Below, in pieces: positions 722 through 63,276 of a stretch of 64,000 nucleotides of DNA (positions within the stretch are counted from its first letter, which is position 1; the number at the start of each line of letters is the position of its first letter). A program made the translations under genes and the position numbers. The stretch is from Tridacna crocea (taxonomy: Eukaryota > Mollusca > Bivalvia > Cardiida > Cardiidae), in contig OX031065.1 in the NCBI GenBank assembly GCA_943736015.1, positions 46,292,992 to 46,356,991 of the forward strand, given 5' to 3'. The notes under the pieces are model-generated. The model ran no database searches, was not told where the DNA came from, and saw nothing but the letters and a program-made list of their open reading frames with translations.

Positions 722-816
722 TTCAAAGGATAGAAAGTAGTGCTGGTAAAAGCAGCAAAATGCTGATAACAAGCATTTTCTGGTTAACCCACAATGTTTT
801 TGATAGCCCCATTTAT
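722..816 (+). mobile_element. Palindromic MITE A fragment
   Basis: Decayed core only (AATGCTGATAACAAGCATTT); ends not recognisable. Confidence 0.5.
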
Positions 817-1258
817 TAGTCTTACACGAAACTTTGCAACAAATGCGCAGCTGAAATACAGACCACAACCTGGTGGGATTCAAACCCATACACATGAGAT
901 GTTCATTTATCGAGGTTCAAAAGACCAACACCATAACCACCGAGCCAAAGAGAATTCTCTTCAATGCAGTTGTTAGGTATTGATTTAACCCTTTCCCAAA
1001 CAAGCCCTGCTTTTTACGTGTCTGCAGTAAAAGTCTTTTGAAAACACTGTGGGAAAAGGAAAAATTGCTCGTAACGAGCGATTTCTCTTTTTCCCACAGT
1101 GTTTTCTACCCTTTTTGGTAACTTTCTGCCATTTTTTCAAAATTGAAAATTGTCATCTGCAAACTCTTTCAGTTTGGAAGAGACCAAAATTTGTCGTTTG
1201 GGAAAGGGTTAATGCGGGATCAAGCTATGCAGCAATGAAGGAGTGATCTCCCGTAACA
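817..1258 (-). mobile_element. tRNA-derived SINE, split by a MITE
   Basis: On the minus strand it has an A-box-like TTTGGCTCGGTGGTTATGG and a B-box-like GGGTTTGAATCCCACC. Body segments are 817-984 and 1213-1258; a subfamily C MITE (985-1212) sits between them. Relatives at 15573-16296 and 42660-42798. Confidence 0.7.
985..1212 (+). mobile_element. Palindromic MITE C, complete, inserted in a SINE
   Basis: TTAA on both sides. The C core is GAAATTGCTCGTAACGAGCG; ends read CCCTTTCCCAAACAAGCCC and GTTTGGGAAAGGG. Confidence 0.85.
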
Positions 1259-13600: not shown

Positions 13601-16600
13601 AAGGGTATCTTTACATTTGTAAGTCCAAGTATATCCTGCATCTGGTCAGCTACAATCATCACAATGATTATATGACCCCTGTGTTATGGTGACTTATGTT
13701 CTAATACAAAGCAAAAAAGATTTACCTTGCTTTTCCTCGTCCCTAATGGCCATAATCTTTTGATCACACTGTTCTGACACAGTGACCAGCATTTGCTGGA
13801 AATAGAAACAAAATAACCCTTTCCCAAACAAGCCCTGGTTTTTACGTGTCTGCAGTAAAAGTCTTTTGAAAACACTTTGGGAAAAGGAGAAATTGCTCGT
13901 AACGAGCAATTTCTCCTTTTCCCACAGTGTTTTCTACCCTTTTTGAGAACTTTCTGCCATTTTCTCAAAATCTAAAATTGTCATCTGCAAACTCTTTCAG
14001 TTTGGAAGAGTCTAAAATTTGTCGTTTGGGAAAGGGATAAATGGATGGATGGATGGATGGATAGATGGATGGATGGATGGATGGATGGATGGATGGGTGG
14101 GTGGGAAGGTGGGTGGGTGGGTGGATGGATGGATAGATGGGTGGTTGGGTGGGTGTGTGGGTCAATAGATCCAAGATCAGATTGCATATTTCATGCAGTC
14201 TGATATTAATCCAGTCTGCCAACAAAATTGAGTACAGTCATGATAGGCTGTCAAAGTCACAGCAATTTATGCCTATGTCAATCTTCAATAATATGGTAAG
14301 TAGAGGATATTCTTTTGGTGAAAGATCGAAATTTATTTCATCGAGTGTGCCACTCATGAAAATATTACCAATGGTGTTCACTCGATGAAATAAATTTTGA
14401 TCTTTCACCCCCCCCCCCCCCAAAAAAAAAAAAAAATAAAAAAAAAAGATCTATTTATTTATTTATTTCATGCTTTTAACCCTTTAACCCTTTCTGGAAG
14501 GAGCTTTATCAAAATCCAGTACAGTTCTTTTCCGTTATTCCCAGTGGTGTACCCCTCCTGCATAGCAACGCATTACAATATTACGTCAAGCGTGAGAAAT
14601 GTAAGGTAAATGACGTCATATTTCCCATCTGGTTGTCAAGCAGGCGCAATTTACCTAGGCAACAAGAACATATAAATCGGTATTTTCACTGGTTGTACCA
14701 GTGTAAGATCAAAAAATATTTTCAGTGCTATTTCTCGATATCCTACCGGAAAGCATGAAATAAAAAGAACTATAGTATAGATAGTACATGTATATACATA
14801 CCTTTAAAGGCTCAAGTTCTCTGATCTGTTGTCTCTGGTAGGCAAACATCATTTCATATTCATTTTTGATACTGGACAATAATGGCTTGTAGGTTTTAAA
14901 GTCTTCTATCAAATACTCAAATACTTCACGGTGGGCCTGGTAGAAATAGAAATGTCCTTAACTCTTTACCAAACAACAAATTTATAAACTAGTCTAAATT
15001 CAAACCATTTGCAGATGACAAAGTAAAGGTAACTGAAAATTTAAAATTTGTTTTGGAAAGGGTAGAAAAGATTGTGGGAAAAGGAGAAAATGCTGGTTAC
15101 CAGCACTTTCTCCTTTTCCCACAATGTTTTCAAAAGGCTATTTTCTCAAGGTCTTCAAAAGTTGGGATTGTGTGGTAATGGGTTAACTCTCTACCAAACA
15201 GCAAAATTTTAGACTTATCTGCGTGGAAGAAATTTACAGACTAAAATTTACAAATTTTCAAATGATAGTATGTTGTCCTTGAATAGGTAGAGGCCATTGA
15301 GGGAAAAGGAGAAAATGCTGGAAACCAGCATTTTCTCCTGTTCCCACGATGGCTTCACAAGATTTTTTTTGCAGTGTCGTTAAAACTTGTGGCAAAGGGT
15401 TAGAAAAACAATGTACATTCCTTAAGAAAATCACAACATAATCAAAAGTGTAGATACAATTTCTTTGATCACATAATCAACAGTCATGGCAAAAACAAAT
15501 TTTATCATCAGATTACAAATTGCCTGCCACTTCATTGAGTGAATTTTCTTTAGAAAATAAAAAAAGCTCTGTATTAAATGCATAGCTAAAATACAAACTG
15601 CACCTGGGGGAATTCAAACCTGTGCAGAAAAGGATCCTCATTTCTTAAGGTTTTAAAGGTGGCAGATTTTGGGACAAAAATTTTACATAAATGCAAAAAA
15701 AATCCTTATACTCTCAAAGCCTTTTAATTTGCTTTCATAAAACCCCAGTAGTCGAAAACCATCCGACAACGCGAGAAATTAGAGATTCACTATGGCTAAG
15801 TTTGACTCCAACGGGAGACACATTCTATTTTTAGATGATCAATTTGCTCATTTACATACAAGAATACACAGACGAAGTTTCAAACATAGCGTCCACATAA
15901 GACATTGTGGAAAATAATTATTACATGTTTGTTATGTAATGGAATTTAAGTGTTATTAGTCACGTGCCAGTCACTTGACATTCCCACAATGCTTTATTGA
16001 TTTTTGGCGTGAAATCTAAAAATACCTTAAGAGGCTAGGTAGCCTTTTAAGGGAATGTCATCAAAAAATTTTTTTTTTGTAATTTTATGAGTCTTAATTA
16101 TTGATGATTTGTATTATTTTTCCATACGAATTTCAGTGACATATATATTTCTTAAATTGGTGAGATGTAAAAATTCTAAATACCCACCTTTAAATGACCA
16201 GCACCTTAATCACTGAGCTATGGAGAATTCTTTCTAATGCAGTTGTCAGGTATTAATATTATACAAGAAGAAGCTATGCAGTAAGGATTGAGTGATCTTA
16301 TGTAAGGAAGCATTGTGGGTAAAGGAGAAAATGCTGGTCACCAGCATTTTCTCCTCTCCCTCAATGTTTCTTTCTCAAAAGATTTCTTTCTCAGGATAAA
16401 AGGTTAAGTAATAAATAAATCATAATACCATACTGACCTGTAACCTTAGCTCATTTGGCTCCACTTCAATAGCATCTAATGCCCTCAACTCTTTCTTCAA
16501 GTAGTTTTCCAGTTGCTCCAGGAACCGTGGTTTAGGAATCATATTTGGTTTACCGATCTGTTCATCACTGACAATCACCAAGCTCTTATCTTTGGTCATT

Positions 16601-19600
16601 ACTAGTGAGGTTGTCGGAACAGAATGTCCACTAGCATGTGCTGGCCATGGGTCAAGTTCTCCAGATTTCGTGTCCACATATGGCTTTAATGATAAAGTAA
16701 TTATATGTGAATTTTTTTTTTCAGTCTCTTTCCAACTGCCCATAACAGGTACAACAAAAACTTAGACAATATCAATGGAAATAGAGACAGTTTACAGTAT
16801 TTGACAAATACCATTTATTAGGAACAGTACTTTTCTTGTTTCCTTTTTTTGGCAAATTTATACACATGAAACTTATAAAATGCTTATAATTATATTTAGT
16901 CTCTTACCAACATTTTCAGGGTTTTTTTGGTGCTATCCTGAGCAAAAACAATTTATTAAAATATTTCAGTCTAAAATTTAGTCATGTGGTAAAGAGTTGA
17001 TGTTTCTTCGCACGATTCAATGCGTTATCAATACTGTACTGACAAAGACAGCCTTCGAAAACATTGTGTGAAAAGGAGAAAATGCTGGTTACCAGCATCT
17101 TCCCCTTTTCCCACAATGTTTACTCCTGTTTCACTGCCAAATCTTATAATTCCAGCCACATCTTTACATTTTTTTTTTAACCCTTTCCCAAACAATCCCT
17201 GGTTTTTACAGGTCTGGATTAGTAGTTTTTTGAAAACATTGTGGGAAATGGAGAAAATGCTGGTAACCAGCATTTTCTCCTTTTCCCACAATGTTTTCTA
17301 CCCTATCATAGACAGAAATCATCTTTTCAGCAAGAGTTGAATTGTCGTCTGCAAATGCTTTCAATTTGGTCTAGTCCAAAAGTTTGTCGTTTGGGAAAGG
17401 GTTAAAATGCTTTCCATCTGGACAACTCCACCAAGTCTTTTTTGTTGCTAAGTATAGAGTCAACAGATATTTCATTTGCTTACCCGAAGGGCTCTAGGTG
17501 GTGGTAATGCATGAACTTTGCCATTGACAGAATATGTTGGTCCACTGAAACCTTGTAGTTTTTCATGCTGTCGAGGTGAAATATTTGGAATTGGCTTCAC
17601 TCTGTAAAAACAAACAAAAAAGTTAAAGTCCTCAATATTCATAACATGCCAATTTTAAAAGTTTTGCTAATCTTGCCCATTAAAATAATATGATTTTGAA
17701 TGGCCCATCTGTATAACTTTTTACCAGAGGACAAAATTTTAGACTTTTCCAAATTGAAAGCTTTTGCAGACAAAATAAAAGTGACTCAAAATTGAAATAT
17801 GTTTTTAAATGGTAAGAAAACATTGTGGGAAAAGGAGAAAATGCTAGTAAACAGCTTGTTTTCCTTTTCCCACAATGTTCTCACAAGTCCACTGTCCCAG
17901 GGTCGTTAAAACTAGGCATTGTGTGGTAAAGGATTTTAAATGAATAAAAAAGTGTTTGAAAGTAGTGGTAACTTTCCGGAAAAAAGAACATGCTGCTGTA
18001 ACTAATGAGTTTCCCTAATTACTTGAATTCCATACTAGGAACCTTTACCATAGTGGTTACCATACCATAATTCCTGGATTCCAAAGACTTTCAAGGTATT
18101 TAACTCATTACCAAACGATAAAATCTCAGACAAGTTGAAATTGAAAGCATTTGCAGACTACGAAATAAATGTGGCTCAAAAAATTAAAACTTGACATTGG
18201 AAGGGTAGAAAACATTGTGGGAAAAAGAGAAAATGCTGGTTACCAGCATTTTCTCCTTTTCACACAGTGTTTTCAGAACATGGCTTCTTCCTTAGGGTTG
18301 TTAAAGCCAGGGATTGTTTGGTGAAGGGTTCTTCACATCACATGGCAATTTGAAAGACATCCAAAATGGGAGCATCAGCAGATGATAAATCAAATGTGGT
18401 AAAACCTTTACCACAAAATGATGACTTTTTGAAAGGCCATCTTTCACATGGTTATTAAAACTCAGTGTTGTGTGGTAGAGGTTTAGCATTTCTTCTAACA
18501 CAAAGCGATGCAGTAAGGTCTATGATTATGAAGAGATTGTGCTGCTTGTATGAAATACCACAGGATTTGACATTCTATAACCAAAATAAATGATCAAATA
18601 TGAAAAAAAAAAATCTCCCCTTTATAATATAAACACAAGGAATGCAACGTCTCAATTGCCGGCGCTAGCACCCTACAGCCTTTCCCAACCAAAATCACCC
18701 ACGAAACAAACATTGATCATAATTTCCTTTAGCCTAGCGATACACAACAGAAAAATGTACCTGCGACATTCGGTGATTCCTCAGTAGACACCTTTTAACC
18801 GGAGATATCCATCATGTTTTACAATTTTTTTTAAATTTCTATCCATCGGTGATTCCTCAGTAGACACATGTTAACCAGAGATATCCGTCATGTTTTACAA
18901 CTTTTTTGGAAATTTCTATCCATCGAGGAGGCCATTCGCTGATGTCACGGGAAGAGCCAGGAAGCGCATTTTCGGATTACGTATTACAATTATTTTTTTC
19001 GTTTTTAGATATATTTATGGATATCACTTGATACTTAAGATTTTTCTAGAAGTAACTAACAAAGGTATTTGACTGTATTCTCTTTTAAAGAAAAGCTATT
19101 TTACTCTACATGTAATCCGAAAATACACTTCCTGGCCTTTCCTGGGAATCCCGTGACGTCAGCGAATGGCCTCCTCGATGGATAGAAATTTTCAAAAAAG
19201 TTGTAAAACATGACAGATATCTCCGGTTAACATGTGTCTACTGAGGAATCACCGAATGTCGCAGGTACATTTTTCTGTTGTCTATCGCTAGGCTAAAGGA
19301 AATTATGATCATTGTTTGTTTCGTGGGCGATTGTGGGTGAGAAATGCTGTCTTGTGCTAGCACCGGCAATCGAGACGTTGCATTCCTTGTGTTTATATTA
19401 TATAGGGGAGATTTTTTTTTCTCATATAAGATCATATATTTTGGATATAGAATGTCAAATTCCTGTGGAAATACAAACCTAGGTCCTCTCACCCACAGGG
19501 TAGCTCTCTTACCACCAAGCAAACCCTGTCCATCCAAATTCCTTTCCCTTTTTATTATTTTCTCACAATTCGATATTTTTTGGTAAAGGGATAGACACGA

Positions 19601-22600
19601 TTTGCAAAGTTTTATCCGGCGAAGTGTATCCGGTTACTGCACTACTTCAGGAAATATCCTAAATATTTAGCCAAAATTTGATATCAGAGGTGTTACGAGA
19701 GACCACTCCTTCCTGCATGGCATACTCCCGATTTAAATACAATACCTGGCTACTGCGTCAGGGAGATATCTCTTTGGCTCAGTGGTTAGGGTATTGGCTT
19801 TGCGTCCAGGAGTTCGGAGTTCGAATCCCGCTCCGATCCTTATTTCTGCCATGCATTTATTCATTTGTTTCTTTGTTACGGACTTTGTGATATACGACGT
19901 TGGGTGACTCACGACCAGATGCCCGGCTAGCTCAGTTGGTAGAGCTGCGGTACTAGTGTTCCGGGGGTCGTGGGTTCGAGTCCCGCGTCGGGCACACTTT
20001 TCTCCCTTGATTTACTTCATTGGCGACGAGGTAAATTGGTGAACGCGGGATGCGGCACCAGCGGTCCATGGTGACTGAAAGGGGAGTTGGTTACTCCCAA
20101 AAATCAGGAGGGGGAGGAGTGTTGTGATATACGACGTTGGGTGACTCACGACCAGATGCCCGGCTAGCTCAGTTGGTAGAGCTGCGGTACTAGTGTTCCG
20201 GGGGTCGTGGGTTCGAGTCCCGCGTCGGGCACACTTTTCTCCCTTGATTTACTTCAGTTCGTAAGATGGGGGCTCGTCCGGGATTGGCCATTGAGCCATT
20301 AATCCCATTTGTTGTCCAAAAATCGGACTTCCTGCCTAATAAGGCTTTGAGTCATCAATAAATGATGACTTTAAGAGGGGGTGTGTTATGGGAGACCACT
20401 CCTTCCTGCATGGCATACTCCCGATTTAAATACAATACCTGGCTACTGCGTCAGGGAGATATCTCTTTGGCTCAGTGGTTAGGGTATTGGTCTTGTGTCC
20501 GGGAGTTCCGGAGTTCGAATCCCGCTCCGACCCTTATTTCTGCCATGCATTTATTCATTTGTTTCTTTGTTACGGACTTCGTTCGTAAGAGAGGGTTTTA
20601 CTCTGGTATCCTAAATCGTTAAGGCAGTATACCAAAAATTACCCTAAAGGTGGCAGTCTTGCGACTGCAAGTCGTCCATCGCTCATTTTAAAGTAGAAAA
20701 GAAACTGCAGCAATTATCAGCTTTCAGGAGTCGTCATGGTGATGTAAACAATTCTAGTACCAGTGATCTCCCTTGTTGATACTCTTCGTAGGGCGCGCTC
20801 GATTTGGTCTTCTACTGCGTCTTGAAGGTCTCATGTTATAATCGAATGCATAAAAAAGCACCCCTTACCCCGTTGTCTGCACATGTCATATTCTTCGAAG
20901 ATTCGACCTGTCTTATGGTGTCACACCATTTGTTTTGGGCCATATTGAAAATAGAGTGAAACTGGCGATCTTTGAAGCCTCACAGATCGCTAATTTGCAA
21001 AACTTTTGCTTTCCCTTTCTCTTGCTGTCTAAAGTATGCCCATAGTCCTTTAAGAAAATGCATTAAGAACAACATGTCAACCGATCGCGTTTTTCTTAAA
21101 AATGACGGGCATCCTAGATTGTTCCCTCTCAAAAGTTCATATAGTTCATATAGTTGTAGAGACCAATTACACTTCCTAGTGTATAAGCAAGGTGCTTCTA
21201 TAATAAGCACCTGTTCACCCTCGTGACCCTAATTTTTTGTTCCTCTCGTGACACAAAATAGTCCACTCAATATACGATAAAAGCACATCTAAGTGGTTAT
21301 CCAATGCCTAAATTTGAAGCAAATCTAAATCAGATACCATCAAGCCCTCTTAGCTCCATACAACAGTGCAACAAAAGTGCTACTGCAAATTTTCACATAT
21401 GGGACTACTCTTGAAGTCCTCCTACGAACCGGAAGCAGTCTCGCAGTGGTGCGACACCTATATATGACGCATCACACTCCCCGCTATCGGGGAGACTGTA
21501 GTGATACGCGCCATAAAGTAGCAATTGAGAAAATGGCTTTTATCAATACGTTTGAGGCTGTAGTAATCGTACGCGCTATAAAGTAGCAATGGAGAAAATG
21601 GCTTTTATCAATATGTTTGAGGAAAAATCAGACTTGTTTTAGCTCCGGATTTCTCTAAACTGCTGATTACAGCTGAATGAATCGCACCAGGTAGCGTTTT
21701 ATTGAGTTTAGTTTAAACATATTTATTTGACACCGATTGAGAAACAAGTTCTCACAACTTAATGAACTTATAATAATCTCTCTCGATTCTGCTTCCTGGG
21801 AACTGCACCAGTACTCGCGCCGAATGTGCGGGCCAATGAAAAATCCTAAAGTTGACACCCGCTCCCGGGTATCGAACTCAGGACCTTTAGGTTATGAGGC
21901 CGCCGCCCTGCCTCACAACCACGGACACCACACACGTTTATTGAGTAAACGTTTGTTTTAGTTTGATTGTCAAAGTAACGGAATCTTAATTGTCTCGTAG
22001 AAATGTACGTGGTCCGGTTCTGTACCCAGGATGTCCAAATTAGATACATGTAGATGAGTATTTGTAGAATGCCATCCAGCGGGAGATAATGCCCCTCCCC
22101 CCTTTTCACCGTAAGACATGTTATTTTTAAAAGAAATTTAATTGTCTGTGCCTGTATGGGGCCCTAAATTCATAACATTGTCTCATGGCCAGCTCTCAGC
22201 AGGTATTTTAAAGAAAGTGGAAGAAGAATCTTTTGAAAACAAAAAAGCTGACATGTTCCAAGATAAATCTACAGGAATGCGAATATTAAAACTCTTTTGT
22301 GGTGCAATTTCAAGAGAAGTGAAATAATGAAAAGAAAACCTGCCATCAATATAACTCTTTTTCCTAATTGTTTTGCATGTTGTTGCAAAGGTGATTTCTT
22401 TTTTTCAATCAGTCATTTTTCGAGAAAACCCCAACTTATCGTTGGAAAAGGAGTGGTTCCTGTGAAAAGGGGGGGGGGGGGCCTCCGGACAAAAAAATGT
22501 AGATTGTGCTCTACATGCAGCGAGGAAATGTTCCCGGAAAATGGTCTTTGAAAGTATGTAAACCAATAATCATTCAAAGTTATTTTTCTCTGGATATAAG

Positions 22601-28800: not shown

Positions 28801-31800
28801 ATGCTTTTGATTGGACAACGTCAAACTGACATGTTGTGTCATGGGTTTTCACGCTTTTTCGACGATCCATTTTTTCATATCAGTTAATTTTCAGAAATTG
28901 TTTTCAGCATTATTGTGCATAAAATTTTCGGTATATGTAGCAACTAACTCCAAAATCTGTCATTTTTACGCTAGATAAGCAGATCAATACCATTATCATG
29001 TTTTTCATTAACAACATCGATAAATACACACGATTAATTTCTAGCCAGTGAAAAGATGTAGACCAGGTAACCAGGTAAGGCATACTGAAGGCGTGGCTTT
29101 AGAAATTATGGGCGGTGACTAAATCTTGTATCTGATAACTGATTGGTTTGATATAGGGTGCTCAAAGGGGCGTGACAAAATATTGATATTTGATTGTTTA
29201 GCAGTGGTGTGTATGCAAACTTGTATGATGTGCAATTTAGACAAGACCGTTAATGAATGCCAGCCTGATAAGGTGTGATAAACAGTTACGCGGGCTTCCT
29301 TTACACTTGATACATACTGTGTATGTCAGAGGATAGTTTATAGACATTTACTTGTCGCCAATACATTTGCCAATGCTTCATTTTTGGTGCCATTTTTTCT
29401 AAATTTTCGCATTTGGCGCCACTGGCGATCGACAGCGGGAGCCCTGCACAGTGTTTTCTTCCCTTCCCAAAACGACCAGTCACTTTCATTTTGTCGTCTG
29501 CAAATGCTATAATTTGGATGGGTCTAAAATTTTGTCGTTTGGTAATGAGTTAATTATTTTTGGAGAAAAAGCCACCAATGGCTAAAAAAGCTAATGCCAG
29601 GATCTGTAAATGTTTGGATTGTTCAGGGACAGGTTAATTAGGTGGAGTGTACAGGCGAGTTGTGCTTGTAGTCATGTACGTTTTGTTCTCTAGGTGTTGG
29701 AAAAACTCATAAAGATGCTGCCAGTGTGAGAGCAACACATCCCATACCGACATCATGTGGCATTTATTATTTTGAAGTGAAGATTATTAGCAAAGGAAGA
29801 GATGGGTATGTATTGCAAGTGTTAACCCATTACCACACAATCCCTACTTTTGACGCCCCTGAGAAAGAAGCCTTTTGAAAACATTGTGGGAAAAGGAGAA
29901 AATGCTGGTAACCAGCATTTTCTCCTTTTCCCACAATGTTTTCTACCCTTCACAAAACAAATTTCAAATTTTCAGTCACTTTTATTTTGTCGTCTGCAAA
30001 TGCTTTCAATTTGAACCAGTCTAAAATTTTGTCGTGTGGTAAGAAATTTTATCGGAGAAAGGAAAAATGTAAGTTGCTGGCATTTTCTCCTGTTCCCTCA
30101 AAGTTTTCAGGAGTTTTCAGGAGTTTTCTTCTTTGGTGTCATAATAATGTGGGACTTTTTGTTTAAAGATGCTGTGGTTCATGCAGTGGTCATCAAGGGT
30201 CAGTACAGTTTCATGCTGTTGTATGCTTAGATATACAACTTCAAATAACTGATGCTGACCTCTATACTGACCTATATTAAATGTTGTAGTTAACAGGTGT
30301 GACTCTTGCAAAGTATCACAAGTGTCATGTATTATGCTGCATACAGTTGCAAATGATGTAGGAGGGATGATCAGAAAGATCGTGGACCACCTCATTATTT
30401 TGAAAACTACTACTTTTGAATTACAAAACTACTACTTTTGAATTACAAAAATTTTCATAGAAGAGCAGTGATTATCTGATAACTAACTCAAGCTTTCTAA
30501 TGTTGTCATCTTCAAGTAGGTTAAGGAGACATCATTTTCATGACAACATATACTGCATTACTGGTCCAAAATATCTGACTATGTTTTATTTGAGCCGAGA
30601 AAAATCATGGAGTTTTATGTCAAACTCAGAAAGTAGATTCATCATGCAAAAGCAACATATAAACAAACTGGACTATGATAAAGAGGAAATGCCAATTCAT
30701 TTTTAAGTAAACTTTTTTTTTTTTATTTCAGCTATATGGGTATTGGACTTGCTGCTCAAGGTGTAAACCAAAATCGACTTCCAGGTATATTTTATGAATG
30801 TGATCAAAACTCTGTTCTCTATGAAGTTGATTAGTTTCTTTGGTGTTATCCCTTTACACACACAATGATGACTTTTAAAGCCCCTAAAAGAGAAAGCTTT
30901 TGAAAACATTGTGGGAAAAGGAGAAAATGCTGGTTACCAGCATTTTCTCCTTTTCCCACAATGTTTTTTACCCTATCAAAGAAAAATAATTTCATATGAG
31001 CCACATTGAAACTGTCATCAGCAAATGCTTTCAATTCAGACAGGTCTAAAATCATGTTCTGAGGTAAAGAGGTAAGCTCTATTTTCAACTCTAATGGTCA
31101 ACCCATTACTGCACAGTACAGACTTTTAATGACCCTGAGTAAGAAAGCTTTTGAAAACTTAGTGGGAATAGGATAAAATGCTGGTGACCAGCATTTTCTT
31201 CTCTTCCCACTTTGTTTTCTACCCTTGTCAAAACAAAGATAAATTTTTGAGACACATAAATCGTTATCTGCAGATGCTTTCAATTCGGGCTAGTTAAAAA
31301 GATTCTGTCATTTGGTAAAGAGTTAAATTCCAGGACACCTACAGTAGAGCTATCAATGAGTCCCTTTAGCATTACAAACAGCATGTCATCATGTCACTAT
31401 TTTGCTCTCTCTCATTAATTCTTTACCAAACAACCAGATTTTAGACTGGTCCAAATTTAAAGCATTTTGTACAAAATGAATGTAACTAAAGAACTGAATT
31501 TTGTTTTAGGAAGGGAAGAAAACATTTTGGGAAAAGGAGAAAATTCTAGTTACCAGCATTTTCTCCTTTACCCAAGATGTTTTTAAAAGGCTTCTTTCAC
31601 AGGGGTATTGAAAGTCGGGATTGTGTGGTAAAGGGATATGATGGGAGAGGACTGATACATATAGCAGTAATTTTCAACAGTCAATATAAAGACTGTTGAA
31701 TGATGATTTGAACTTAACCCTTTGCCCTATAAGGCATTTCTATGGTATCTCTAAATGACCCTAAATAACAACAAGGATGATGCTGTTTCTTATGTTTATG

Positions 31801-37800: not shown

Positions 37801-40800
37801 TTATTGTGTACATCATTTTATAGACTTGAAATTTGCATAACAAATGTTAATCACACTCGAGACCTCACGTAAGAAAAAACATGGACAAAAAAGGCCATTA
37901 TCTGTTTATCGTGAGTAAAATAACAGGTTTTGATGCTACATGTAGTTCTAATCCTTATTGAGAAATCTATGTCGAATCATGCGAACATACCTATCCAGAA
38001 ATTAACACGCATGAAAAATTGTTCGGTGGAAAAAAAAACCACGGAAACCCATGACACAACAAAATGTCTCCTTGACATTGTCCAATCAGAGTCCTCTTAG
38101 ACTGTCTTTTCAGCTTTTTAATGAGTAGTAAATGTAGATCTAGTTAGAATTCATATTAATTTAGGCCTACATAATTATGAAATTTCAATACAATCTAGAA
38201 GTGTTAAATTTGCGGTATTTTGTTTTTCAGGTATGCTGAAAAAAGAACAAACACAATTTTCGCATTTTTTTCTTTCTTTTGAAAATTGAAATATCATATG
38301 ATATATCGAATATCGATCATTTTGTATCGATACAAATATCGTATCGATCAAACTGACCGATACGGAGCCCTATGTATCACTATCCAATTTCTCCTTATTG
38401 GACAGTGTAGATCCAAGATCAGACTGCACATTCTGTGCAGTCTGATCTTGATCTACACTGTTCGCAAAAGGTCAGTGAGTCACGCTAGCACCCTAGGGGT
38501 TAATACTTGATATTTTTAACATGTAGGATCAAAACTCAACCATCTTTTGTTAGAAGTCTTCCACATTTCTGGATTGAATATTTGCCCATTGGGCCATAGT
38601 AGTGATGAGAAAAAAGGCAGTAGAAAACATTGTGAGAAGAGTAGAGAATGTTGGACACCAGCTCAATGTTTTCAACCCTTTCAGCAAAGCTTGTCATTAC
38701 TTCAGCCATGATTTATCTGTGATCTGCAAATGCTGTATATTTGGATCTGTCTTAACTCATTATCAAATGACAATATTTTAGGCTTGTCCAAATTTAAAGC
38801 ATTTGCAAACGACAAAATGAAAGTGACTGAAAATTTGAAATTAGTTTTGTGAAGGGTAGAAAACTTTGTGGGGAAAGGAGAAAATGCTGGTAACCAGCAT
38901 TTTCTCCTTTTCCCACAATGTTTTCAAAAGGCTTCTTTTCCAGGGGGCGTTAGAATTAGGGATTGTGTGGTAATGGGTTAACTTTTGTCGTCTAGTAAAG
39001 AGAGAATCTGGTGGTATCTTTTTTTCTAGAAAAATTGTGTCTTGTCGGTGACCTTTTTAAAAAAATATTGCTGCAAGAAAAATTGAAAATCTTCTGTTCG
39101 CAACCACTTCTGACATGAGTACATCTATTTCCTGTTCATGAACTGTATAACAAATTCACCGACCACAAACTTGTTCTGCAATGAAATGAGTTGTTCGAGT
39201 TTTGTGGCAAATGTACTGTATGAGAGTTGTCTCTTGCACAATACCCAAATTATGAAAAAAACTCGGGTGATTTGTAAAGGACCACAATGTTTTTTTTTTT
39301 TAACAGAATTGTATACACATACCTAGTTCACTATGGACACTGCTCGACAGCTGAAAGTTTTGCCAAATCTACCAATCAGACATTGGAAGAAGAAGTCTCC
39401 TCTATACGAAATAGACAACGTAAGTTACAATCTTTACCGAGTCTCCTCTATATGAAATAGACAACGTAAGTTACAATCTTTACAGATAACTGCTGTGGAT
39501 GACTTGTTTCTACCTTGAGCAAAACTTTATTTAACTCTTTACCAAACAACAAAATTTTACACTTTTCCAAGTTGAAAAAATTTGCAGACAACAAAATAAA
39601 CATGACTCAAAAATTGAAACTTGACTTTAGAAGAGTAGAAAACATGGTGGGAAAAAGGAGAAAATGCTGGTTACCAGCATTTTCTCCTTTCCCCATAATG
39701 TTTTCAGAAAGTTTCTTTCTTAGGGCCATGAGGACCTGGGATTGTTTGGGAAAGGGTTAAACATTCTGGTCGAAGGAACTATTTCTTGCAAAAGTGCCAC
39801 AAAATCTGACTGTCTTGAATTTACAAAAGTATGGTACCTGCTGGAAGCTCCACCTGCAATTTTGCCATCCTTGTGTGAACCTCATAAATTTAAACAGCAG
39901 ATTCGCAAGACTGAATATTTATATTTTCCTTGGGGACTAAAGAATTATTTTCCCTGTAACTTTGACCTTCATGTACTTAAGTGCAATCTTAAGTTTGAGT
40001 GTCTCTGTTTACTATTTAAGTGCTAATTGGCAGGTGTATTTCTCATTATGTGGTAAACTCATGTTGATTTACAGAGAGATTCAAGGCAATAATAGTAACT
40101 AGGAGTAAACTGCTTATGTGCGAAATTTGCAGCCCCAGTTTTTGTTAGGAAGCATCTAGTCTGAAATTAAGTTTCAATGAACTGCAGAACTTTACGATTT
40201 GAGTAAATTTCGCCTAACTTTGTGCCAGATCATATTCTGAGTAAAGCAGGGATTGTTATGTTTGTATATTCCATCCACCCCAACAATGCGTAGAAGTATC
40301 CAGTTTATCCTGAAAGTTGAGTTCTCAAAGTCCTTTCTGGCAAGAAAAATGTTGCGGTGTTGCACAGTTTAATCGAAGATCTGACTGTGTATTATGTGCC
40401 GTCTGATCTTAATCCTTCCCCAAACAACAAACTTTTGGACTAGACCATATTAAAAGCATTTGAAGACGACAATTCAACTCTTGCTGAAAAGATGATTTCT
40501 GTCTATGATAGGGTGGAAAACATTGTGGGAAAAGGAGAAAATGCTGGTTACCAGCATTTTCTCCTTTTCCCACAATGTTTTCAAAAGGCTACTATTCCCG
40601 ACCCGTAAAAACCAGGGATTGTTTGGGAAAGGGTTAATCTACTTTGTCCTCAAAAAGCAGGAGAATTATGCTTAGCAGCCGATTGGTCAACTCACTTTTT
40701 GAAAGGGTTCTAGCACTGATTCTGGTTTACATTTGTTTCAGGGATATCCAAACTTGTACTGAAAGGGAGAATGGGTGAGGCTATAGAGGCTACACAAATG

Positions 40801-43800
40801 TCATATCCAGGTCTTCTAGAGAGAAATTCCAATTTATTATTCATGTTAAAATGTAGACAGTTTATAGAGATGGTGAATGGAACTGACAGTGAAGTACGCG
40901 GGGCTGCACTAAGGAGCCCCAGATCTCAGCACGGTGGGAGTAACAGATCTAGTCCCTGTAGGAGCCCAGTACACCACTCACTCTCCCCCAGAGTTACACC
41001 ACTGTCCACAAACTCAGGAAATAACAGTCCAAACAGATCAAAGTCAGTCAGCAAATCTCTCTCAAACTCTCAAAAGTATCCACAGACTGCCAACTCCAAC
41101 CAGATTTCAAGCAGCAACAGTTTAGGGAGTAACAACAGTCAAAACTCGCAGTCGGACTTGAAAACCATTTCAGAGGAGACCATGAATGCGGCCAATATTG
41201 CTCATTCAAACTTATCTGTGAATAATGTTAGTGTCAATGGAAATCAGTCAAGATGTATAGAGGACGTGGAAATGTTAGAGGGAGTTAATATGCTTGACGA
41301 GAATTCAGTTGTGACTAATGGTGATAGTTCTTCCAACGGACAGTACATGAATGGAGAAAGCTGTCATCATGACAAAGACATTGAAATGGGTAGGTTGGTT
41401 GGTGCTAGAAAAGAGTGTGTACAAGAGTACATGTATTTAGATTTTTACCTCTTGACAAACTTATTGACTTGCTTGGTAAAGGGTTGTATTGTGAAGTCTG
41501 AAATACAGTCAAATTGGTAATGGGATAACATTATGATATGAGGTTATTCAACCCTTTCCCAAACAATCCCTGGTTTTCACAACCCTGAAAAAGAAGCCTT
41601 TTGAAAACGTTGTGGGAAAAGGAGAAAATGATGGTAACCAGCATTTTCTCCTTTTCCCACAATGTTTTCTACCCTGCTGGAAACAAATTTCAATTTTTGA
41701 GAACTTGCGTTTATTTTGTTTTCTGTAAGTGCTTTCAATTTGGACTAGTCTAAGATTTTGTGGTTTGGTAAAGAGTTAACATGCTTGGGTACGATACTGA
41801 ATTCTATTGGATGAGTACCTTGCAGAACCAGTCTATATTTTTGACGAGGCGACAGCCGAGTCTGAAAGATAAATTGGTTTTGCAGTGTGCTAGTAACCAG
41901 CATTTTCTCCATTTCCCACAATGTTTTCTACCTTTCCCAAACCAAATTTCAATATTTCAGTCACATTTATATTGAAGTCTGCAAATGCTTACAATTCGGA
42001 CCAGTCTAACATTTACTTGTGTGGTAAAATTACCTCTGTGCAAACTTCCATGTTTATAAGGTATTGGCTCATCCAGGATTTGCCACAGAATCATTTGGTT
42101 TAAAAAAAAGAAAGAAATCCTGCATTATATGCTTTCTGTCATCAAAGTGATTACATTTAACCCTTTACCACAGGATGACGACTTCTGACGCCCCTGAGGA
42201 AGAAGCCTTTTGAAAACATTGTGGGAAAAGGAGAAATGCTGGTAACCAGCATTTACTCGTTTTTCCACAAAGTTTTCTACCCTATCAAAGCTAAATTGCA
42301 CCATTGGAGCCACTTTGAAATTGTCGTCTGCAAATGCTTTTAACTTGGATAGGTCTTAAATTTCGCGGTGTGGTTAAGGGAGGGGGCGGTGTTTACAGGA
42401 GATACATGTAACTACTTCTTAACACATTAGCAAGCATTTGCAGACGACAAAATAAAAGTGACTGAAAATTTGAAATTAGTTTTGTGAAGGGTGAAAACAT
42501 TGTGGGAAAAGGAGAAAATGCTGGTTACCAGCATTTTCTCCTTTTCCCACAATGTTTTCAAAAGGCTTCTTTCTCAGGGGCGTCAAAAGTAGGGATTGTG
42601 TGGTAATGGCCCTAATGGGCTAACAGCATAGCTTCATCCCATATAAAGTCAATACCAAACAACTGCATTTGGGAGAATTCTCTTTGGCTCTGTTATGGTG
42701 TTGGTCCTTTTAACCCGAAAAAATGAGAGTCTCTTCCACAAGGGTTTGAATCTCACCAGGTGCAGTTTGTATTTCAGCTATCCATTTGTTGTGAACTTAC
42801 ACCTTAACCCATTACCACACAATCCCTACTTTTGACGCCCCTGAGAAAGAAGCCTTTTGAAAACACTGTGGGAAAAGGAGAAAATGCTGGTAACCAGCAT
42901 TTTCTCCATTTCCCACAGTGTTTTCTACCCTTCCCAGAACAAATTTCTATTCTTCAGTCCCCTTTATTTTGTCATCTGCAAATGCTTTCAATTTGGACCA
43001 GTCTAAAATTTTCTCGTGTGGTAAAGAGTTAACTTATTACTAAACGACAATATTTTAGACTGGTCCAAATTGAAAGCATTTGCAGACGACAAAATGAAAG
43101 TGACTGAAAATTTGAAATTTGTTTTGTGAAGGGTAGAAAACATTGTGGGAAAAGGAGAAAATGCTGGTTAACAGCATTTTCTCCTTTTCCCACAATGTTT
43201 TCTAATGGCTTCTTTCTCATGGGCATCAAAAGTAGGGATTGTGTGGTAATGGGTTAATAAGAGCAACTATTACAGAACTTTCCATTGCACACTTGGAGAC
43301 TGTTTCATCATGATTTAGAATGATGAAGCAGATGATGTAGATGAAAAGGAAGACTTTATGTTCTGTGCAATCAAGTCTTCATCTACCCAGTAGATGGATA
43401 GAACTGCTCAATGTCCTTTTGCAGACTATTTAGTTCAAGGTTAAGCTGCGCAGAGGGTGTAGTCTGTTTTATTATACTGCAAAGAAATTTCTGGTGATTT
43501 GATTGGTTAACATGGCAGGAACATTATAATTATCATGTTCCCTGGCAAAAACAAAAAAAAAAAGACAGTTTCCCTTTTGAGTGCCCCTTAAACATCACTA
43601 CACATGCAGCACAACATCCAAAATGGCGGTGTCTATCGATCACCAGATTGCATATTTATGCACCAAACTGCATGTTTTAGTGACGTCACTTTCCAGTGAC
43701 ATCAGTTTCCATTGAATTCGTGCTCTCATAAGGGAATTTCCTTTTCTCGATTCGTGAAATTGTAAAACAGGAAAATTTCGCCCTTTTAAAGGGTAAAACT

Positions 43801-49800: not shown

Positions 49801-52800
49801 GGGGAAATCAGGTGGCAATAGAGAAAATGTTGCAGTTTGGTCGTGAGTTGCAATCCATGAGTGTTAGACTACGAAAGGAGTTTGGGCCAAATGAAACAAA
49901 CAAAAAATCACTGCAGGTAATTTTCTGTGAAATTTTTTTTTCCTGGTCAAAATTCATTCTGTGTTTAACATTTCTTTCAATATAATGTTCAGGAAGGTTG
50001 AGGAAAATTGACACTGTAGGAAATTTATTTTTTTTTTCACCCTTGAAAAAAAATAAAAATATTTTGGGAAATGGAATAAATGTTACATCATCCTTTTCTC
50101 ACAATGATTGAATCCTTTACCACACAATCCTGAGTTTAACTCTTTCCCAAGCAATCCCCACTAACAACCCTTAGAAAGAGGCCTTTTGAAAAACATTGTG
50201 GGAAAAGGAGAAAATGCTGGTAGCCAGAATTTTCTCCTTTTCCCACAATGTTTTTTGTACTTCCCAAAGCAAATTTTAGAATTTGAGTCTCATTTTTTTT
50301 GGTCGTCTGCAAGTGCTTTCAGTTTGGACAAGTCAAAAATATTGTTGTTAGGTAAAGAGTTAAACGACCTTTAGGAATAACCCTTTTGCAAATATTGTGG
50401 GGAAAGCAGAAATTGCTGGTAACTAGTATAATATCCTTTTCCAAAAATGTTTTCTGCTCCTACAAAGATTTAACTCGTAATTTTGGCCACATCTACTTAG
50501 AGGTCTGCCAAATTTCTTTCAGTTTTGATCTACTCAAGTCTAAAACTTTGTCGCTTTGTAAAGCGTTTAAGAAAAAAAAAAAATGTTTTGAGTTAATCTA
50601 ATTATTTGCAAGAGAATGCATTCAATTTTAACAAGTCTTTAGACAAGTCTAAAAGTTTATTTGCTTATACCCCTGTCAAACCCAACTCATTCCCATAGCG
50701 TTCTAAAATTGTTGTGAAACTGACTTGAACTGTCTTTGGACAGAGGGGACGTACTATCAAACTTTTTACAATCTGTTTACAAAGTTAATGGGTGGGTATA
50801 GGACAGCTTTGGATGAGAGGGATGCTCTAGAACTGTGAGCCTGCTCAAAATGTTCTGCTGTCCATCCCATCCTATAATTTCGTGGATTGACAACTTACTT
50901 AACTCTTTACCGAACGACAAAATTTTAGACTGGTCCAAATTGAAAGCATTTGCAGACGACAAAATAAAGGTGACTGAAAAAAAGATTTTTTTTCTGGGAA
51001 GGATAGAAAACACTGTTGGAAAAGGAGAAAATGCTGGTTACCAGCATTTTCTCCTTTTCCAACAGTGTTTTCAAAAGGCTTCTTTCTCAGGGGCGTCAAA
51101 AGTAGGGATTGAGTGGTAATGGGTTAACCCTTTACCAAACGACAAAATTTTAGACTTGTCCAAATTGAAAGGTTTTGCAGACGACAAATTGAATGTGACT
51201 TAAATAATGAAATTTGTCTGTGACAGGGTTGAAAACATTGTGGGAAAAGGAGAAAATGCTGGTTACCAGCATTTTCTCCTTTTCCAACAATGTTTTCAAA
51301 ATCCCTATACTCCAGGGTCATCAAAAGTCAGGATTGTGTGGGAAGAGTTAAAACATGATGGACATACAACAAACGAACTGCCATTCTTTGATCCTAATAG
51401 AGACGCAATGCATTTGGGTATCGTTTGGTAGTGCATTTGCATTTTACTGACAGAAATTACATGTCCTATGTTGAGAGAAGCCAGTTTTACAATTTTGTTG
51501 ACCGAGATAAGACTTTTCAAGAATAGGGTTAGTGAGACAGGGGATTAAGGCAATATCAGGCCAAAATTACACATTCTAGCATGACTGCAACTCATTTTCA
51601 GACTGTCTGGACAAGGAAGACATTCTAAGAAAAAGTTTGATGTGACTGGAACTTTAACAGTGAAAAACATGTGGTACTTTATGATTGGGATCTGTTTGAA
51701 TTTACTCATACAAACATTATATGTGAATTATGGCCCTCTTGTTAACATTTCAGGATGCATTTAGTTTATTAGCCTATTCTGATCCCTGGAACAGTCCTGT
51801 CGGTGCTCAGTTAGACCCTGTGATGAGAGAGCCTGTGTGTGCAGCACTCAACAGTGCTATATTAGGTAAACCACAGATCAGATCATGTTTGTACATAGGA
51901 GCCATGTGCTGTAAAAAGTGGTCTTAACTCTTTACCACACGAGAAAATTTTAGACTGGCCCAAATTGAAAGCATTTGCAGATGACAAAATAAAGGTGACT
52001 GAAAAATGGAAATTTGTTATGGGAAGGGTAGAAAACACTGTGGGAAAAGGAGAAAATGCTGGTTACCAGCATTTTCTCCTTTTCCCACAGTGTTTTCAAA
52101 AGTCTTCTTTCTCAGGGGAGTCAAAAGTAGGGATTGTGTAGTAATGGCTTAATGTATTTGCAAAAAGTATCGACCTAGGTCAGCCTGCGCAGTCCGCACA
52201 GGCTGATGTAGGCCAAAACTTTTTGCTTTTGGTAAATTTTATGTGTGTCAAAGGACCAGTCTACCTCAGGACTTAGTCGATTATCATACAGAATGTGGGT
52301 AGAAATGTTGGAGCTACAAATGCCAGAGGGGGGAAACAAAACAACACAGTTTGAAATTTCAAAGTGGTAAATATGCCAGAAATGAAAATGTGCTAGGTAA
52401 AATTGTCAGATGTTTTAACTAGTATGTAGATGAGGGGAAAAAAGACGGAAACATTTTACATTTTACACCAGTAAAATAATTCTCTCTAGGATATTCTGAA
52501 ATTGGTTCATCTTTCTTTGAATCTGTCTCATTTGTCTATTGAGTTGACAGGTCAGTATTTTCTCCTGTTTCTGAATTGTTTTCAGCTATTTCAAAGACAG
52601 ACATCTGTTAAGCTACACTGAGTTTGTGGTCTACAAATGATTTCAGTTAGGGCAAGTTGAATTTAAGTTATGTGTTTAACTCATTACCAAACGACAATAT
52701 TTTAGGATTGTCCAAATTGAAAGCATTTGCAGACGACAAAATAAAGGTTACTGAAAAATTGAAATTAGATCTGGTAAGGGTAGAAAACACTGTGGGAAAA

Positions 52801-57465: not shown

Positions 57466-57520
57466 TAAATAGATTATTGATATTTGAGGTCATCAGGATA
57501 TTTTTATTTCTCCACGCCCG

Positions 57521-57775
57521 CCCAGGTGGCTCAGTGGTGAGCGTGTCGGACTCGTGATCTGGTGGTTATGAGTTCGATACCCGGTTGAGGCGAACTTTCT
57601 TTCTGGCGTATTTCTGCCTGTCACCTCTGCTGAAGCATGTGAGAAAAGTAGTTGGTGGCTTTGGAAAGAAAGTTGTGAGTGAGAAAGCCAGGAAACACAT
57701 GTGTGTCACCGACCGCCATGATACGACCTTAGCTGTTAAAATGGCTTTAAACCCAAATACAACCAATACAACAAT
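57521..57775 (+). mobile_element. tRNA-derived SINE
   Basis: Copy of 32247-32517: GTGGCTCAGTGGTGAGCGTG, GAGTTCGATACCC, tail AACCCAAATACAACCAATAC. Confidence 0.8.
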
Positions 57776-57869
57776 TATTTCTCCACATTTGCAAGAATAT
57801 GGATGAAAGGTATCTTTTTAGCATTTCACGGACAAAGAAGAAGTATTGTACAGATAAAGCTTCTAAGTC

Positions 57870-61004: not shown

Positions 61005-63014
61005 TTAGATTGAAAATATATTTACTAAAGGACTGTTTGGTGAGAACAGACTTGGACCCCACTCAGTAACAACAACTTGGTCACCACGCGCGCAGATTGC
61101 ATATGGGATTCGAACCCCGTCTCTAGAGGAGATGAACTTATTCTGTAGTAGTCTACCGCCGTCTGATAGCACTTGTATCACATTGTTATCCAAACATAGA
61201 AACACAGATCCATTTTCATGACTGGAGACTCCCCAGGGAGAGGCTGGAGTCTGGTAGGTCCATTTTACCGTCCCTGATTGGTCGACACACATCAGGGTCC
61301 TGTTATCGCGGTCCGATACTAGTATGTTACCACTTTGAGTGACGTCAAGGAATCTTGGCCAGCTAAACAATTGTTCACCTGAATTGTCGTTTGAAATGGA
61401 TACTAGGATCTCCCCACCCATACTGATGACGTCAACACACTGTGTGCCTATTACACAACAAGACACCACACACTTTTCGTCCGGTAGACATGCTATACCT
61501 TCGTATGGCTTGCTTGTTACAATTGTTTCTTTAAAAGTCAGAACAGACTCCGTTTCTACCAGTGCTAGTTCGGACTTCTCTGGTAAGGTCACTACAACAA
61601 TAGACGAATCTGGTATCCCAGCAACGCAAACAGGACATTCAAGTGCAAGTGCACCATAAAACGGTGTCGCAGAAGAAAACTCACATTTCAGCACCATGCC
61701 ATTGTGAGCATCTGTTAGAATCATATAGTTACCAATTGTTATGATGCCTGTCAGCTGCCAACATGAAGTCGAAATTTCCGGTGTTTGTACACTGAACGTG
61801 ACCTTAGCTCGTGTCGGTACAGACCGTCTTCTTCCCGTTCTTTCAGTCGAGGCACTGGTTCCGACGGTGCTTCGTGGTGTTACATTTGGAGTATTGAAAT
61901 CCTGTGACCAGGTCAAGCTTGATGCCATCGATTCACGTGGTGTCGTTCCTCCAAATGTTCTAGCAGACAATGGTGGATTTCTAGGGGTCGTCAGTACAGG
62001 AGAAATTTCATTCATTATTGGGTTGAAAGACGGTTTTACTCTAGCTCTGTTGCCCCTGGATCGACTTTGCACGACCACAGAGCCTAACGCAGGCATGTTC
62101 TCGAATACCCGTTCTAGTTCACGATTGACTACAAAATGTACCTCCATACCGGACGGTTGGTTGCCAAGAGACTGCAAGACACCATCATAATCGTGTACCT
62201 GACGCTCAATGTGGGATATTGTATTCAGAATATGAAAACCGTTTCCATGGCTACATATATCTTCCAACTGTTCTGCGGTATCGTTAATTTTCCCTAAAAT
62301 TACAGAAGCTTGTTGATTTTCTGTAAGCTGTCTCGTTCCAGTGTCTCTTATAGTGGTTTTCATTTCTGCTAATTGGCGTAAAGCTGTTTGGTAGAAAAAT
62401 GTCATTTTCGTTTCTAAATCTGTAAGTTCAGTCATCGCTTTTTCCTTACTGTCTTTCAAAATGTTATTTTCTGGAGAGTCTCCGTTTATGAGTTTCTTTG
62501 TCGTTTTTATTTGGCTTTTAAGTTTATTTCTCAATAGATCTATTTTGGGTTGAAACTTTTCCACAGCTTCTTCAATGCTAACACACTCGCAGTTGTTTCC
62601 CTTATGTTGTTTTACGACACAATAAGCACACACTGGTAATGAACAACGTAAACAGTAAAACTCTTTCGTTCTCCCTTTGTGAATTTCACATTTTAACAAA
62701 GACTCATCTGAGGCCTGAGAACCGTGTGTCATGACGGCATTCAACAGACTGGCAAGAAAGGTGTCGACCGGAAATACATTTGCCCAATCTTTTGGCGGGA
62801 GAGACAGGGACGGTCTTTGAATTTGAGTTCGGTCGTTTGGACATTTAAAGAACACTGCCGCCCTGTCTGTTACTGTTTGTTTAATGTGGTCGTCTAGACA
62901 CTGTTTGCAGAATGTGTGACCGCAAGGTAGAAGTCGAGGATCCGTATAACGTCCAAGACAAATAGCACACATTAAATAGTCATTTTCTACGTTTCTTATC
63001 ACTCTTTCCGCCAT
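61005..63014 (-). CDS. Single-exon TRIM-like RING/B-box protein with C-terminal propeller, 669 aa
   Basis: RING finger at residues 16-61: Cys16, Cys19, Cys31, His33, Cys36, Cys39, Cys58; the expected last Cys is Asp61 (CPND instead of CPxC). B-box2 at ~109-142: Cys109, His112, Cys121, Cys124, Cys129, Cys132, His137. A coiled coil spans ~150-290, then a Ser/Arg/Pro-rich linker (~300-400). The C-terminal ~260 residues contain NHL-like propeller strands (GNILVSDRDNRTLMCVDQSG). This resembles the TRIM2/3/56/71-type proteins greatly expanded in bivalves; likely role is E3 ubiquitin ligase, substrate unknown. The start is ATG at 63014; three codons upstream the open frame begins with TTG, which is not a start. 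The CDS is uninterrupted, unlike the other two genes. Confidence 0.9.
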   Translation of the reverse strand: MAERVIRNVENDYLMCAICLGRYTDPRLLPCGHTFCKQCLDDHIKQTVTDRAAVFFKCPNDRTQIQRPSLSLPPKDWANVFPVDTFLASLLNAVMTHGSQASDESLLKCEIHKGRTKEFYCLRCSLPVCAYCVVKQHKGNNCECVSIEEAVEKFQPKIDLLRNKLKSQIKTTKKLINGDSPENNILKDSKEKAMTELTDLETKMTFFYQTALRQLAEMKTTIRDTGTRQLTENQQASVILGKINDTAEQLEDICSHGNGFHILNTISHIERQVHDYDGVLQSLGNQPSGMEVHFVVNRELERVFENMPALGSVVVQSRSRGNRARVKPSFNPIMNEISPVLTTPRNPPLSARTFGGTTPRESMASSLTWSQDFNTPNVTPRSTVGTSASTERTGRRRSVPTRAKVTFSVQTPEISTSCWQLTGIITIGNYMILTDAHNGMVLKCEFSSATPFYGALALECPVCVAGIPDSSIVVVTLPEKSELALVETESVLTFKETIVTSKPYEGIACLPDEKCVVSCCVIGTQCVDVISMGGEILVSISNDNSGEQLFSWPRFLDVTQSGNILVSDRDNRTLMCVDQSGTVKWTYQTPASPWGVSSHENGSVFLCLDNNVIQVLSDGGRLLQNKFISSRDGVRIPYAICARGDQVVVTEWGPSLFSPNSPLVNIFSI

Positions 63015-63276
63015 TTCACTCAAGCACTATTATTTCCTTTGTGTGATTTTTTTTCTTAAGTTATAGTAAAATCATTTTTACTTGGTTCCCTCTATTCCAA
63101 ACAATTATCAATGAAGATAATCAATGTGTCTCGTTAGTTGGCGTAACTTACTATACTTTGAGTGGTTCTTGTAATGAAAGTCCTTCTCTATTAGCCCTCA
63201 TTCTGAAATGAAAATTTTGAGCCGATAGAAAAAAAAAACCCAAACAATGTTTCTCAAAGCTCAGAATAATATCTCC

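Follow-up and report, generated by a model that had tools for sequence, protein, structure and literature searches.

The closest described relatives of the elements reported here are Helenus, a group named by Kojima in 2024 for TRIMs with a tRNA-like LTR sequence, found in six animal phyla including bivalves (PMC10886601). Helenus elements are 311–1263 bp long; each of their two LTRs holds a tRNA-like sequence that includes an A and a B box, and they have a primer-binding site (PBS) and a polypurine tract (PPT). In animals they have 4-bp target duplications, their bivalve primers include tRNA-Pro and tRNA-Ser, one zebrafish family forms tandem arrays, and in fungi gene finders take their modules for tRNA genes (PMC10886601). 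The available text of that paper states that Pol III transcription of Helenus is not validated, names Gypsy-13_CGi, a Gypsy element sharing a Helenus PBS, for tRNA-Pro in oyster, lists molluscan hosts from five orders of Pteriomorphia with no heterodont in its Table 1 and no word on any screening of heterodont genomes, and proposes an age of >470 My for molluscan Helenus (PMC10886601). A search of the available literature for Helenus or TRIMp3 found no other paper on the group. Cassandra is a miniature, non-coding plant TRIM with 5S rRNA and a Pol III promoter in its LTR (PMC10886601). A third system, biv-TRIM (Satovic 2019), occurs in heterodont and other bivalves, with terminal repeats of 202–218 bp, tandem copies, an interior of 77–80 bp, a PPT that is mostly GGGGAGA, a conserved TGATCCCAAAGGAC and no unambiguous PBS (PMC6934838).

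The window (the whole 64,000-nt stretch of Tridacna crocea DNA analysed) contains two nested elements, X and Y, that match the available description of Helenus in length range, LTR pair, non-coding interior, PBS, PPT, 4-bp duplications, Pro and Ser primers and tandem arrays. X also shares the box-bearing tRNA-like sequence in its two LTRs; Y has the boxes in its LTRs, and Rfam, taken up to E = 10, gives it no tRNA match. Two differences stand out: the host is a heterodont, whereas molluscan Helenus is listed in Pteriomorphia only, and Y has its A box in a 25-bp hairpin and lacks TTTT, neither of which is seen in the Helenus description as available. Judged by their sequence, X and Y are further members of this published class, in a host clade unlisted for it. 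The first-pass annotation had called a tRNA-bearing animal counterpart of Cassandra notable; its novelty is pre-empted by the publication of Helenus (PMC10886601). Like X and Y, biv-TRIM is a bivalve TRIM with tandem copies, and its terminal repeats are close to the 207 bp of Y, but its available description mentions no tRNA-like LTR (PMC6934838); the X and Y interiors of 100 and 117 bp, and the absence of TGATCCCAAAGGAC from the window, rule it out. Cassandra shares the miniature size, the lack of coding sequence and the Pol III promoter boxes in the LTR, but has a 5S rRNA module and plant hosts where X and Y have tRNA-type boxes; it is ruled out by Rfam, which at gathering scores finds tRNA only, and no 5S, in the window. 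The tRNA-headed SINEs of bivalves (for example, 57519–57790) share the A and B boxes, but the LTR pairs, PBS, PPT and 4-bp duplications rule out a SINE identity for X and Y, SINEs having ends set by a LINE-like or A-rich tail and not being known to have LTRs, PBS or PPT.

Nested elements X and Y and their genome copies

Both elements are real and lie where they were first described (Table 1). PBS-like sites and purine tracts in each bear out the annotated TRIM order of LTR, PBS, interior, PPT and LTR, and the nesting of X in the first LTR of Y holds, the Y 5′ LTR being split by X and the 3′ LTR uninterrupted. The LTR pairs stand as annotated; their sizes (134 bp for X, about 205 bp for Y) are revised by the genome copies to 137 and 207 bp. 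These copies place the true start of the X LTR at TGTTGTG, of which the first X LTR in the window lacks three bases. The X LTRs of the window are 100% identical over 135 nt, and direct-repeat comparison of the Y pair gives 95% and 97% identity over two ungapped stretches; because the former are identical and the latter differ by about 4.5%, X inserted later than Y. No exact 4-bp duplication was found around the X of the window, whose left flank is ACGGACTT and right flank GTTCGTAAG, the unsplit second LTR of Y reading ACGGACTTCGTTCGTAAG. The simplest reading would be that X inserted with a GTTC duplication and that eight bases were then lost at the left junction. Another X–Y contact is found at a separate locus (L037), where a second X adjoins a diverged Y-type LTR and has the opposite orientation.

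Table 1. Coordinates of elements X and Y, their parts and older Y-type LTRs in the window
Feature	Position	Strand	Basis or remark
Element Y, whole	19691..20590	+	direct repeats and genome copies
Y target-site duplication, left copy (GAGG)	19687..19690	+	identical to 20591–20594
Y target-site duplication, right copy (GAGG)	20591..20594	+	matches left copy
Y 5′ LTR, first part, up to X insertion	19691..19885	+	about 95% identity with 3′ LTR
Y 5′ LTR, final 10 bp	20257..20266	+	leading GTTC doubles as inferred target duplication of X
Y interior, 117 bp, non-coding	20267..20383	+	genome copies
Y primer-binding site, 18 nt	20267..20284	+	complementary to host tRNA-Pro 3′ end plus CCA
Y polypurine tract AAGAGGGGG	20373..20381	+	read from sequence
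Y 3′ LTR, 207 bp, intact at insertion point of X	20384..20590	+	repeats and genome copies
A box, Y 5′ LTR, TGGCTCAGTGG	19775..19785	+	box search
B box, Y 5′ LTR, AGTTCGAATCC	19818..19828	+	box search
A box, Y 3′ LTR	20468..20478	+	box search
B box, Y 3′ LTR	20512..20522	+	box search
Hairpin, Y 5′ LTR; 3′ arm is A-box region	19740..19796	+	letters identical to 20433–20489
Hairpin, 25 bp, Y 3′ LTR; A box within 3′ arm	20433..20489	+	−33.7 kcal/mol, z −6.93
Element X, whole	19886..20256	+	direct repeats and genome copies
X 5′ LTR, without first three bases	19886..20019	+	repeats and genome copies
X interior, 100 bp, non-coding	20020..20119	+	genome copies
X primer-binding site, 11 nt	20021..20031	+	complementary to host tRNA-Ser(GCT) 3′ end plus CCA
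X polypurine tract, 14 purines, adjoining 3′ LTR	20106..20119	+	read from sequence
X 3′ LTR, full 137 bp	20120..20256	+	genome copies
tRNA-like module, X 5′ LTR; A box 19928–19939, B box 19973–19983	19921..19995	+	ARAGORN, Rfam 43.5 bits, boxes
tRNA-like module, X 3′ LTR; A box 20165–20176, B box 20210–20220	20158..20232	+	ARAGORN, Rfam
TTTT, possible Pol III terminator, X 5′ LTR	19998..20001	+	same place in 22/23 X 5′ LTRs
TTTT, possible Pol III terminator, X 3′ LTR	20235..20238	+	same place in 21/23 X 3′ LTRs
Diverged old Y-type LTR, split by MITE (980–1212); A- and B-box regions kept	805..1258 (approximate ends)	−	
Diverged old Y-type LTR, A box damaged	42612..42812 (approximate ends)	+	
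Diverged old Y-type LTR fragment, B-box part degraded	16101..16295 (approximate ends)	−	

The T. crocea assembly (1.049 Gb, 31 contigs) was searched with only the best candidates scored, so that counts are lower bounds: the 900-bp region gave at least 62 matches, and X alone at least 43 scored matches out of 560 first-look candidates. The mitochondrial contig of this assembly (29,009 bp) was recognized by an open frame with 99% identity to ND5 of T. crocea and 94% to that of T. squamosa. Individual copies were examined at 23 loci for X and 18 for Y (the window counted in both, the overlapping L004 excluded); two-LTR copies measure 368–375 bp for X and 529–535 bp for Y. Scored with the X LTR starting at TGTTGTG and the Y LTR ending at GTAAGA, both offsets picked from the data, 17 of the 18 Y loci and 17 of the 23 X loci are bordered by exact 4-bp target duplications, and the 168 other boundary offset pairs gave a mean of 0.18 (X) and 0.17 (Y) matches, with maxima of 7 for X (1,1) and 5 for Y (−1,−1). 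An exact duplication is missing from a single Y locus (L024, first LTR truncated) and from six X loci: L001 (the window), L002 (one mismatch), L006, L033, L037 and L041. X and Y therefore both have dispersed copies with their own target duplications, in line with the earlier suggestion of a class rather than an accident. Tandem LTR–interior arrays with three or four LTRs of X or Y occur at L003, L018, L021 and L025, and their outer ends retain 4-bp duplications. Mean LTR–LTR divergence is 0.5% at 16 Y loci and 3.2% at 21 X loci, low values that point to recent movement of the sampled copies, which as the best-scoring ones are biased towards young ages. Twenty 10-kb stretches at round-number genome positions contained no X and two Y-type LTR remnants (E up to 1e-4). 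A 24-mer of the X LTR had no exact match in viral contigs, and a 31-mer of the X module (20165–20195) had 94 exact copies in the genome (reversed-pattern control, 0).

The Y PBS 18-mer is exact at 17 of 17 other Y loci and in the window, the X PBS 11-mer at 13 of 23 X loci. CCA is added to the 3′ ends of tRNAs. Exact matches in the host genome number 14 for the 3′ end of tRNA-Pro and five for that of tRNA-Ser; two of each were fetched, and ARAGORN called one as tRNA-Pro(AGG) and one as tRNA-Ser(GCT), with the second tRNA-Pro match uncalled and the second tRNA-Ser match uncalled even with longer flanks. The two host 3′ ends are CCCGGACGAGCCC and CCATCCTCGTCG. According to the available text, the 18 nt of the Y PBS are contained in the MLV probe that targets the binding site of proline tRNA (PMC4587795). 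In the literature, as available, the string ATCCTCGTCGCCA is found only in tick miRNA papers, and the tRNA-Ser match was therefore taken from the host's own gene.

Elsewhere, a window-wide swarm of MITE-like repeats of about 230 bp has palindromic cores (for example, 980–1212, 29821–29979, 42803–43032 and 51924–52155); one family of 65-nt cores numbers 83 copies across the 64 kb at an identity of at least 60%, and the 25 longest inverted pairs listed are 84–95% complementary. Just upstream of Y lies a large inverted repeat (18565–18838 and 19187–19460; 274-nt arms, 91% complementary, 348 nt apart). The tRNA-headed SINE (57500–57790) is tRNA-Thr(CGT) by ARAGORN, with no Rfam call at gathering score, and the SINE of 57519 has relatives in five of the 20 sampled 10-kb stretches (E up to 1e-4). 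An open frame on the reverse strand (61005–63026, 673 codons stop to stop) encodes a RING-finger, TRIM3-like protein whose best named matches are from heterodont bivalves (Mercenaria 53%, Dreissena 50%, Mya 49%) and which has a 90% identical relative in ENA sequence; another, on the forward strand (40720–41520), resembles an exon of a RANBP9/10-type protein.

Promoter boxes, tRNA-like modules and the Y hairpin

Pairs of A and B boxes number five in the window (two in X, two in Y and one in the SINE, at 57527), with none in 100 mononucleotide shuffles of it. A tRNA-like segment had been annotated in every LTR, with a covariance-model check proposed; this holds for X, whose module is recognized as tRNA by Rfam at 43.5 bits in both LTRs (gathering 29), but only in part for Y, where the boxes are present though none of the six Rfam matches of the LTR up to E = 10 is a tRNA. 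The top one places mir-2066 on the hairpin (20.6 bits against a gathering score of 100; E 0.076) and was regarded as a chance hit. Given 10 X loci, ARAGORN found two modules per locus; of these 20 it read two as Thr(AGT), and in the other 18 the anticodon was short and unassigned. It could not assign an anticodon to either X module of the window, and it reported no tRNA in Y, whether in the window or at three other Y loci.

The box-holding stretch aligns in all LTRs compared, 47 of X and 37 of Y. Variants per position, their significance untested, are 0.42 in the A box, 0.73 in the B box and 1.04 in the LTR overall for X, and 0.0, 0.18 and 0.29, respectively, for Y. Diverged Y-type relatives are present in the window (Table 1) and outside it, at L037, L047 and L056; the A-box region is kept at the same place across them, with the box itself damaged in old2. 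The letters of the B box survive in old1, old2 and L056; they are degraded in old3, missing from L047 (right half unrelated) and cut away by X in L037. Retention of the A-box region in diverged relatives indicates that the module is old in the Y lineage, and since the boxes align in all X and Y LTRs compared, with the Y A-box region co-located in older relatives, they are not recent single insertions. The Y module shares 41 of 57 nt (72% identity) with the SINE head in the window, and ancient capture of a SINE head is a possible source of the module. A MITE-like copy occupies a similar spot in the Y-type LTR, at a TTAA-like site, both at 980–1212 and in L056.

The stem formed by 20433–20489 was equalled in stability by none of 200 shuffles, and five Y-type relatives gave hairpin z-scores of −4.15, −2.83, −3.77, −2.91 and −1.60, with 0, 1, 0, 1 and 10 of 200 shuffles as stable; a sixth, old3, folds to only −8.0 kcal/mol and was left out of the shuffle test. 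As RNA, the X LTR has a stability like that of its shuffles, 42 of 200 of which match it (z −0.71). Across seven Y-type sequences, 87.7% of cells in the hairpin pair, against 36.5–55.6% for slid partners. Two-sided changed pairs in the same seven number three, against a shuffle mean of 2.0 (156 of 500 shuffles reach 3), a covariation result that speaks neither for nor against an RNA function. At the usual distance upstream of an A box, a Pol III start would fall near the hairpin loop, and both arms would then be present only in a complete 3′ LTR transcript.

Predicted transcription and competing explanations

All 16 intact Y copies are free of TTTT, a set that excludes the truncated L024 and the Y of the window with its X insertion. 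For the 323 bp unique to Y, dinucleotide shuffles predict 2.9 TTTT runs and P(0) = 0.0145, a value from one family and computed post hoc; 5 of 196 window segments of 325 bp also lack the run, and X has one TTTT against 0.8 expected by shuffles. LTRs from 16 copies of Y and 23 of X contain neither AATAAA nor ATTAAA, and AATAAA lies inside 16 of 16 Y interiors, an arrangement ill-suited to a Pol II transcript. Taken together, the TTTT and AATAAA/ATTAAA patterns would suit Pol III better than Pol II.

We consider it probable (roughly 85%) that X and Y are two Helenus-type TRIM families of T. crocea, with predicted Pol III transcription and a Gypsy-type partner in trans. The A and B boxes would recruit Pol III, with a putative start inside the 5′ LTR. 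For X, most transcripts would end at the TTTT that follows the module, giving short tRNA-like RNAs, and a minority would read through to the TTTT of the 3′ LTR, yielding an RNA with the module at both ends (R). Lacking TTTT, a Y transcript would run on into the flank, still with both LTR copies for first strand transfer. Host tRNA-Ser would then prime reverse transcription of X and tRNA-Pro that of Y, and an autonomous Gypsy-type element would provide reverse transcriptase and integrase in trans. An extended version, which we hold only tentatively and think unlikely, sets Y apart as a distinct kind of Pol III-driven LTR that has lost its tRNA fold, placed its A box in a conserved 25-bp hairpin arm across the likely start of R, and rid itself of all TTTT runs, which would let Pol III transcribe the whole element as a single unbroken RNA. 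If so, the hairpin would serve a promoter function or the template jump of reverse transcription.

It is also conceivable, if doubtful, that both are ordinary Pol II TRIMs whose boxes are disused relics, left by a SINE or tRNA that an ancestral LTR once captured. The Y module without a tRNA match, the TATA-like TTTAAATA at 20425 in the Y LTR and the broken A box of one diverged relative (old2) would all fit such relics, but the boxes are less variable than the remaining LTR by the untested counts above, Y has no TTTT, and polyadenylation-type hexamers are absent from the LTRs of all 39 copies while AATAAA sits in every Y interior. That the X module is a host tRNA gene still working as a tRNA is very improbable: its Rfam score and the two Thr(AGT) calls among 20 modules lean that way, as does the report, in the available text, that seven bivalve Helenus families can encode tRNA-Thr (PMC10886601), but the other 18 modules and both in the window have no assignable anticodon, and the copies lie in LTRs with target duplications. 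Hardly credible at all is a single insertion of a SINE or tRNA gene into each LTR of this locus, or an origin of the LTR pairs by local tandem duplication alone, for although both modules look tRNA-derived and LTR–interior–LTR–interior–LTR copies exist at the four array loci, the former is ruled out by the module stretch aligned in all 47 X and 37 Y LTRs compared and the A-box region co-located in old Y-type LTRs, and the latter by separate, dispersed loci each with its own 4-bp duplication.

Under the Helenus-type reading with predicted Pol III transcription, X with TTTT beside Y without it forms a natural pair for testing full-length RNA production by Pol III LTR elements. The published tRNA gene count for T. 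crocea (1,760 in the available text; PMC10858879) may include X LTR modules. The heterodont host extends the range of Helenus beyond the Pteriomorphia listed so far in the available text, and its presence in heterodonts would mean that the class is older than the proposed >470 My, or arose several times, or has moved between species.
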